Shown: positions 34,278 through 50,632 of the stretch, in pieces
How the letters are laid out: every line of letters begins with the position of its first letter
Position numbering within the stretch: the first letter of the stretch is position 1
Assembly (NCBI GenBank): GCA_021770785.1
Contig: JAETQH010000003.1
Span: 62,001-126,000 of the forward strand
Length of the DNA stretch: 64,000 nucleotides
Direction of reading: 5' to 3'
Source: Lachnospiraceae bacterium
GTDB taxonomy: Bacteria; Bacillota; Clostridia; Lachnospirales; Lachnospiraceae
Position numbers and translations under genes: made by a program
The notes under the pieces: generated by a model
The model's database searches: none
The model's input: the letters and a program-made list of their open reading frames with translations, nothing else
Told to the model about the DNA's origin: nothing

Positions 34278-34311
34278 GAGATTCGGGGGCGGGGCTGGGG
34301 AAGGGTATGGA

Positions 34312-34547
34312 GCAGGTTGCACAAAGTGGGGGCTGTTTTTGTTCCGATGTCCAGAGATAAGATGTTCTAAGAAATCTGGGCAGGGGCTGTAGAGTAGGGA
34401 CGTAAACGGTACAAAGGCGCCTTCCATGGCGCCGTTGTACCTCGCCCAGCCGTCCGTGGCTGGGCGTTACTGGGTACCGACAGATTTCTAAGAACCTCTA
34501 ATCTCTTCCCATAGTCACAAAAACAGCCCCCACTTTGTGCAATCTGC
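34312..34547 (+). repeat. T-shaped foldback element, copy A
   Basis: 29-nt terminal inverted repeats (34312-34340 / 34519-34547, one G.T pair), inner gttctaagaaatctg / cagatttctaagaac stem, two apical hairpins (34409-34441 and 34443-34466). Confidence 0.9.
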
Positions 34548-34552
34548 CAATA

Positions 34553-34799
34553 TCAGTTATCGTCAGCCCCGCTTCGATAAGTCCAAAATATCGGTAACGG
34601 TTACTGGCAGCCGCTTTTGATAAGAGAAAAATATCGGTAACGGTTACTGGCAGCCGCTTTTGATAAGAGAAAAATATCGGTAACGATTACTGGCAGCCGC
34701 TTTTGATAAGAGAAAATACTGGTAACGGTTACCGTCAGCTGCTTTTGATAAATGAAAAACATCGGTAACGCCTACCGTCAGCTGCTTTCGAGGTCTGTA
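34553..34799. repeat. 43-bp tandem repeat array (about 5 units plus a degenerate leading unit)
   Basis: tcggtaacggttactggcagccgcttttgataagagaaaaata; starts at 34591, 34634, 34677, 34719, 34762. Confidence 0.93.
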
Positions 34800-34898
34800 C
34801 TTCCATGGGGAGAAAATACTATGAGAAAAACAAAGCACAGTATATCAGAAGAGACAGGTATAATGCTGGAGTCAAAAGGGGGTTCGATAACTGATATT

Positions 34899-35136
34899 GG
34901 CAGATTGCACAAAGGAGGCTCTGTTTTGTGACTATGGGAAGAGATTAGAGGTTCTTAGAAATCTGCCAGAACACCAGTAACGCCCAGCCACGGATGGCTG
35001 GGCGAGGTACAATGGCGCCATGGAAGGCGCCTTTGTACCGTTTACGTCCCTTTTCCAAAACTTTTTCGCAGATTTCTTAGAACATCTTATCTCTGGACAT
35101 CGGAACAAAAACAGAGCCTCCTTTGTGCAATCTGCC
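34899..35136 (-). repeat. T-shaped foldback element, copy B (inverted relative to A)
   Basis: 29-nt perfect terminal inverted repeats ggcagattgcacaaaggaggctctgtttt (34899-34927) / 35108-35136; same core and apical hairpins as copy A on the other strand. Confidence 0.9.
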
Positions 35137-35180
35137 TCACAACCTTATCTCCCCCCTACTTTTTTTGCCCCCAACAATTA

Positions 35181-50117: not shown

Positions 50118-50325
50118 CAACATAGTTGACTATATAATAGTAGAACTTCCATAGAGTTTTCCCACCTTATTCCAATATAAGATTCATTCATGCAGCCCAA
50201 CCTCTCATTTCCCCTTAAATCATTCCAATCACATATATCTTCCCGCCACCTCCAGAGAATTTTTCCCCATGTGGCGTTTCATTTTTCCCGGAAACAGTAA
50301 CAGGGGGCTGTCGATAACGTATATT

Positions 50326-50565
50326 GGTAGAGGGCACCAGGGGCAGGGGGAAGGGTGGCTTTGGGAAGAGATTAGATGTTCTTGGAAATCTGCCCAGTAC
50401 CCAGTAACGCCCAGCCACGGATGGCTGGGCGAGGTACAAAGGCGCGCATGGATGGCGCCTTTGTACCGTTTACGTTCCTTTCCCACAACCTTTGCTGGCA
50501 GATTTCTTAGAACATCTTATCTCTGGACATCGCCACCCTTCCCCCTGCCCCTGGCGCCCTCTGCC
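50326..50565 (-). repeat. T-shaped foldback element, copy C
   Basis: 33-nt arms ggtagagggcaccaggggcagggggaagggtgg / ccacccttccccctgcccctggcgccctctgcc (2 non-Watson-Crick positions); same core (gatgttct..gaaatctg) and two apical hairpins as A and B. Confidence 0.9.
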
Positions 50566-50632
50566 GACACACCCCCTCATCCAGCCCCCACCCCCCATTC
50601 CACAAAAAAATAAACCCCACAAAAAAAGGGTA

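Follow-up and report, generated by a model that had tools for sequence, protein, structure and literature searches.

TwoAYGGAY (RF01731) copies in Lachnospiraceae as foldback repeats that probably evolve by template switching between their arms

The first description of TwoAYGGAY, in 2010, classed it as a probable RNA that is not cis-regulatory (Weinberg et al., PMC2864571), and binding of the family by CsrA was proposed in 2014 (PMC4333381). Rfam 15 holds it as RF01731, with two covarying pairs added and the type label Cis-reg. No functional study of TwoAYGGAY was found in the literature searched, and the family has stayed unexplained since 2010. A second point of reference comes from parts of two reports on template-switch mutations, according to which template switching homogenizes the arms of inverted repeats and inverts spacers (PMC8604942) and can be a source of compensatory changes in the hairpins of RNAs (PMC8794818). 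The window analyzed here, a 64,000-nt stretch of DNA from a Lachnospiraceae genome (the host genome, G000), contains two oppositely oriented elements, copies A and B, and a third copy, all of which belong to this already named family.

Identity and architecture of the foldback elements

Copies A and B and the third copy each match model positions 1–168 of RF01731 in cmscan (Rfam 15), with scores (Table 1) that compare with a curated cut-off of 43 bits, and they exhibit the two hairpins with AYGGAY-type loops over a common stem that are seen in RF01731 alignments. A sequence-only reading of this DNA had known no named family with such an architecture; the Rfam search overturned that claim with a clear match, an outcome that the reading itself had named as refuting it. 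Most of its structural description stands. It was right on the inner stem, on both hairpins of the apex, and on their loops, and A and B form the opposed pair that it described, with 173-nt inverted arms, 88% complementary and 500 nt apart (sequence and repeat finder). The outer stem, TGGGGGC in A and GAGGCTC in B, has four differences, all mirrored on the opposite arm. B has a terminal inverted repeat of 29 nt that is 100% complementary, and A has a 67-nt arm pair that is 85% complementary. The length of roughly 237 bp given by the reading was too short, the foldback spanning ~305 bp in A and ~285 bp in B. The fold of A and B is far outside chance expectation: folded as RNA, B reaches −154.6 kcal/mol, whereas its shuffles average −82.5 (z = −13), and folded as DNA it lies at z = −15 relative to shuffles. 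The unit of the 43-bp array between A and B is like the outer end of an element arm (AATATCAGTTATCG..CAGCC..CTTTTGATA), as if an end had been amplified. The genes on either side of the third copy encode argininosuccinate synthase and an argC-like semialdehyde dehydrogenase, gene context being taken from longest-ORF heuristic calls.

Table 1. TwoAYGGAY elements and the associated repeat array in the window, followed by close head-to-head copy pairs among the genomes analyzed
Feature	Position	Strand	Evidence or remark
Copy A, full foldback including outer arms (L017)	34280..34584, ends approximate	-	arm extension, sequence
Copy A core, RF01731	34346..34513	-	126.7 bits
Tandem array between A and B, 43-bp unit (family D1)	34585..34791		repeat finder
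Copy B, full foldback including outer arms (L002)	34873..35157, ends approximate	+	arm extension, folds
Copy B core, RF01731	34933..35101	+	140.3 bits
Third copy, foldback with outer arms	50270..50621	+	arm extension, sequence
Third copy core, RF01731	50360..50531	+	127.5 bits
Head-to-head pair	G000 C1		
Head-to-head pair	G000 C217		
Head-to-head pair	G015 613736/614033		
Head-to-head pair	G015 2296099/2296552		orthologous to G013 C30
Head-to-head pair	G027 C25		orthologous to G020 C88

Extended outward from the core, most copies in the host genome are foldbacks of ~280–340 bp, the full ones being ~316 bp. From the outside inward, conserved termini are followed by a short loop that is asymmetric, by a stem of ~25–45 bp specific to each copy, and by a conserved inner stem, P1; at the center lies a T-shaped apex made up of two hairpins with loops that are mostly A-N-GGA-N. 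Many copies end in GGATTCGGGNGGCAAAAGG and its complement; element ends are also written GGATTCGGG..CAAAAGG, and another type is represented by the ends found in the relative G015. A pattern search of the host genome for the first of these termini returned 41 sites versus 3 for the reversed control, and it also recovered derivatives of 114 and 211 bp that have the same ends and a shortened apex, together with others that have a different interior. Core-less palindromes of 100 to 281 bp in the host genome (L070, L071, L072, L075, L077, and L080) share these termini, and shorter GATTCGGGTGTCAAAAG hairpins are found as well. The core-less palindromes suggest a wider foldback family with exchangeable or deleted apices. 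Taken as a whole, our best explanation is that TwoAYGGAY is here a dispersed, intergenic, non-coding foldback repeat, resembling a miniature inverted-repeat element, that probably evolves by template switching from arm to arm.

Paired arm changes and inversion of the core

The two arms of a copy pair with each other at a median of 0.88–0.93, and arms of different copies at 0.41–0.57, in the host genome and its relatives G013 and G015, and the best match of an arm is its own partner in 87 of 93 copies. G027 has a weaker form of this pattern, and G022 lacks it. For the core, an alignment of 20 copies from a single genome was used instead of RNAalifold on 141 cores from mixed genomes, which aligned poorly. 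Two-sided changes were found in 27 of the 48 pairs of the 20-copy alignment, and its core stem changes comprise 62 two-sided cells versus 5 one-sided cells (table summed by hand). The compensation seen between A and B is thus real and general.

According to the sequence-only reading, the compensated outer-stem changes showed that the fold, as a structured RNA or as a DNA hairpin, is under selection. The fold is real and common to many homologs, and the apex is conserved, but the step from compensation to selection does not hold, because arm-to-arm copying in replication yields an identical pattern; given this neutral source, paired stem changes are not by themselves proof of a selected RNA. 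The DNA-hairpin alternative fares better than a position-dependent RNA, its role in replication or transposition being putative. In the explanation that we favor, replication forks would switch template from one arm to the other and copy arm changes across, so that the arms could drift yet remain paired, and switching would occasionally invert the core, whereas palindrome deletion would give rise to the truncated and core-less derivatives. Selection may be confined to the parts conserved in sequence, namely the ends, P1, and the hairpins of the apex with their A-N-GGA loops, via a putative binding protein, and the copy-specific stem would be kept paired by template switching and not necessarily by selection.

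Both hallmarks of template switching, arm homogenization and spacer inversion, are seen, and we infer this process as opposed to other arm-to-arm recombination. Spacer inversion was found by comparing orthologous copies in G013 and the single-contig genome G015, close relatives that contain 33 and 38 copies, respectively. In six of 22 orthologous copies the core is reversed and the flanks are collinear; the cores at these loci are 97% identical after turning, and the flanks are 96–98% identical in the opposite frame. Markers at all six loci have the same orientation outside the element, are nearly lacking in a near-perfect arm stem of 35–50 bp, and are inverted from the inner edge of that stem through the core, every inversion breakpoint falling within the copy-specific stem. 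Arm divergence is 9–14% in flipped copies and 6% in unflipped copies, with 2–4% in the flanks. The comparison covers one genome pair, and with the G013 draft split into ~50 contigs, palindromes may have been misassembled locally, but the higher arm divergence of the flipped copies is hard to get from assembly error alone.

Recurrent inversion of an apex flanked by the conserved P1 inverted repeat is also what an inverton would produce, with a site-specific recombinase recognizing P1 and flipping the core. We judge this very improbable: markers just beyond P1 are inverted too, and the stem in which the breakpoints lie differs from copy to copy, so that there is no common recombination site at the breakpoints. 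An AAV-like flip-flop via terminal hairpin resolution was also considered and is unneeded, all inversion breakpoints being inside the stem.

The orthologous cores of G013 and G015 diverge no slower than their flanks, so selection on the core is invisible at short range. At one locus (G015:2999324 versus G013:C16:94699) the site and the element ends are shared but the arms and core are those of another copy, an interior replacement. Copies that are not shared by the two genomes comprise one clean absence, two absences that keep the outer ends of the element and look like deletions, and half-deletions.

Distribution and spread of the copies

The host genome contains 22 copies, 12 of 60 relatives have the element, at a maximum of 38 copies per genome, and TwoAYGGAY was detected in 15 of 196 genomes of an order-wide sample, most of them multi-copy; the distribution is patchy between species yet multi-copy. 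A Roseburia sp. 831b megaplasmid of 243 kb carries four copies, two of which are located among the genes of a cobalamin cluster (L299, NZ_CP135163.1 23789–31922). The phages searched for the element gave no match. The trpS of the host is that of a Roseburia-like Lachnospiraceae, and the convergent junction of trpS with a histidine-kinase gene, the site of A and B, spans 955 bp in the host. The same junction is 120–170 bp long and element-free in three genomes of the genus, namely G019, with a trpS region matched by that of a MAG under the name Roseburia hominis, G077, and G082, indicating that A and B are lineage-specific; divergence across these junctions is too large for a base-exact empty site to be defined.

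Close copy pairs are all head to head (minus then plus) in five of five independent cases (Table 1), though orientation elsewhere is random. Two copies in G015 (L297 and L298; G015:2053357 and 2184758) have a group II intron with a reverse transcriptase (TIGR04416, RF02001) inside the TwoAYGGAY core, at an identical site beside a hairpin, and the sister genome has an uninterrupted ortholog (L107, G013:C7:6500).

The copies might spread in the manner of a classical MITE or a REP-type element, with a TIR transposase or a RAYT (Y1) transposase resident in the genome as the mover. This reading concerns how copies disperse, is compatible with template switching between the arms, and is in our estimation quite possible, if a little short of an even chance. 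The elements are short and non-coding, with terminal inverted repeats, many dispersed copies, a size and copy number like those of MITEs, and core-less relatives that share their ends, and the single clean presence/absence site has a possible 6–7 bp target duplication (GAAAAT), a feature of that one site. However, Y1_Tnp (PF01797) had no match in the copy-rich G013 or in the single-contig G015, and on this ground a resident RAYT/IS200 was rejected as the mover in these two genomes. The terminus pattern search of the host genome revealed no transposon-sized pair of ends that could represent an autonomous partner. The gene enclosed by pairs spaced 2.2 kb apart was considered as a transposase and set aside; it is nuclease-like and the same in both sister genomes.

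RNA-level readings and relation to known systems

The type label in Rfam would make TwoAYGGAY a cis-regulatory RNA for adjacent genes, and besides the label itself this reading can draw on the plasmid copy pair in the cobalamin gene cluster. It is largely refuted by orientation and we consider it extremely unlikely. In gaps between same-direction genes of the host genome and G015, the core is sense to antisense in a ratio of 18:19, the contexts include convergent, tandem, and divergent genes, the core is inverted between G013 and G015, and the original authors classed the family as not cis-regulatory (PMC2864571). Random orientation together with the flipping core makes the Cis-reg label unlikely and disfavors any position-dependent regulator.

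The proposal of a CsrA-binding RNA is rather unlikely in our assessment but deserves a hearing. A transcript of the Rfam strand would show two A-N-GGA hairpins to a CsrA dimer, the copies acting as a joint decoy, and the dispersed DNA form would be the means by which the decoy is spread. The published CsrA motif (PMC4333381) matches, and most copies hold one or two A-N-GGA hairpins, A and B holding both. Stems of hairpins with an A-N-GGA-N loop vary by paired changes, and the base preceding GGA in these loops is variable (T 136, C 39, G 9, and A 7). CsrA was detected in 15 of 15 positive genomes of the order-wide sample versus 112 of the 181 negative ones (p = 0.001 by Fisher test, uncorrected for phylogeny), with two CsrA matches in the host genome. 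Mismatches of the G-T type exceed those of the A-C type mildly in the hairpin stems (11:2) and in P1 (51:22), an excess that leans to the Rfam strand and hints at RNA-level selection too. As a means of deciding between RNA and DNA, this test was set aside for its mixed outcome: the outer arms have a G-T excess in the outer stem of G015 and an A-C excess in the host genome.

Other observations weigh against a decoy. Within the genus, CsrA is close to universal and its presence therefore offers no contrast, whereas the element is patchy; 18 of 139 scored copies are without an A-N-GGA-N hairpin; and a search for a sigma-70 promoter between A and B found none. With random core orientation and flipping, about half of the read-through transcripts would bear the complement. 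The idea is kept in play by the conservation of A-N-GGA loops in the majority of copies and by the presence of CsrA in all 15 positives. A combination of the two lines, in which a mobile foldback would spread paired CsrA-decoy hairpins through genomes and plasmids and core inversion would act as a switch between decoy and inert complement in read-through transcripts, seems improbable.

The full foldback unit, the inversion of its core, and the copying between its arms, that is, the dynamics of the family, appear to be absent from the literature searched. If template switching is the correct explanation, arm-to-arm copying can produce strong covariation in a family of bacterial hairpins, and covariation alone is not proof of a functional RNA. 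The family offers a natural test case for palindrome evolution, and the CsrA proposal can now be tested on named loci.

In comparison with TwoAYGGAY as modeled in Rfam, A, B, and the third copy match the full length of the model and have the identical two hairpins, loops, and closing stem, but the model, labeled Cis-reg, covers only the inner 168 nt, whereas the unit found in genomes is a longer, dispersed, and invertible foldback, the ends of which are conserved. Decoy RNAs of the CsrB/RsmZ type likewise have hairpin loops with A-N-GGA, whereas TwoAYGGAY, known here from DNA alone, has at most two sites per copy and many dispersed copies in random orientation. Like bacterial MITEs and REP/BIME-type repeats, the elements are short, non-coding, intergenic, palindromic, dispersed, and often paired; they differ in their conserved T-shaped apex and copy-specific arm sequence, and in that no cognate transposase was found and the richest genomes gave no Y1 transposase. 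With the template-switch mutations described in the relevant parts of PMC8604942 and PMC8794818 they share arm homogenization, paired substitutions, and spacer inversion. The inverted spacers reported there measure a few bases, with a maximum of 8 nt, whereas in TwoAYGGAY the whole core of ~168 nt and its edges are inverted, recurrently at several loci of one family.
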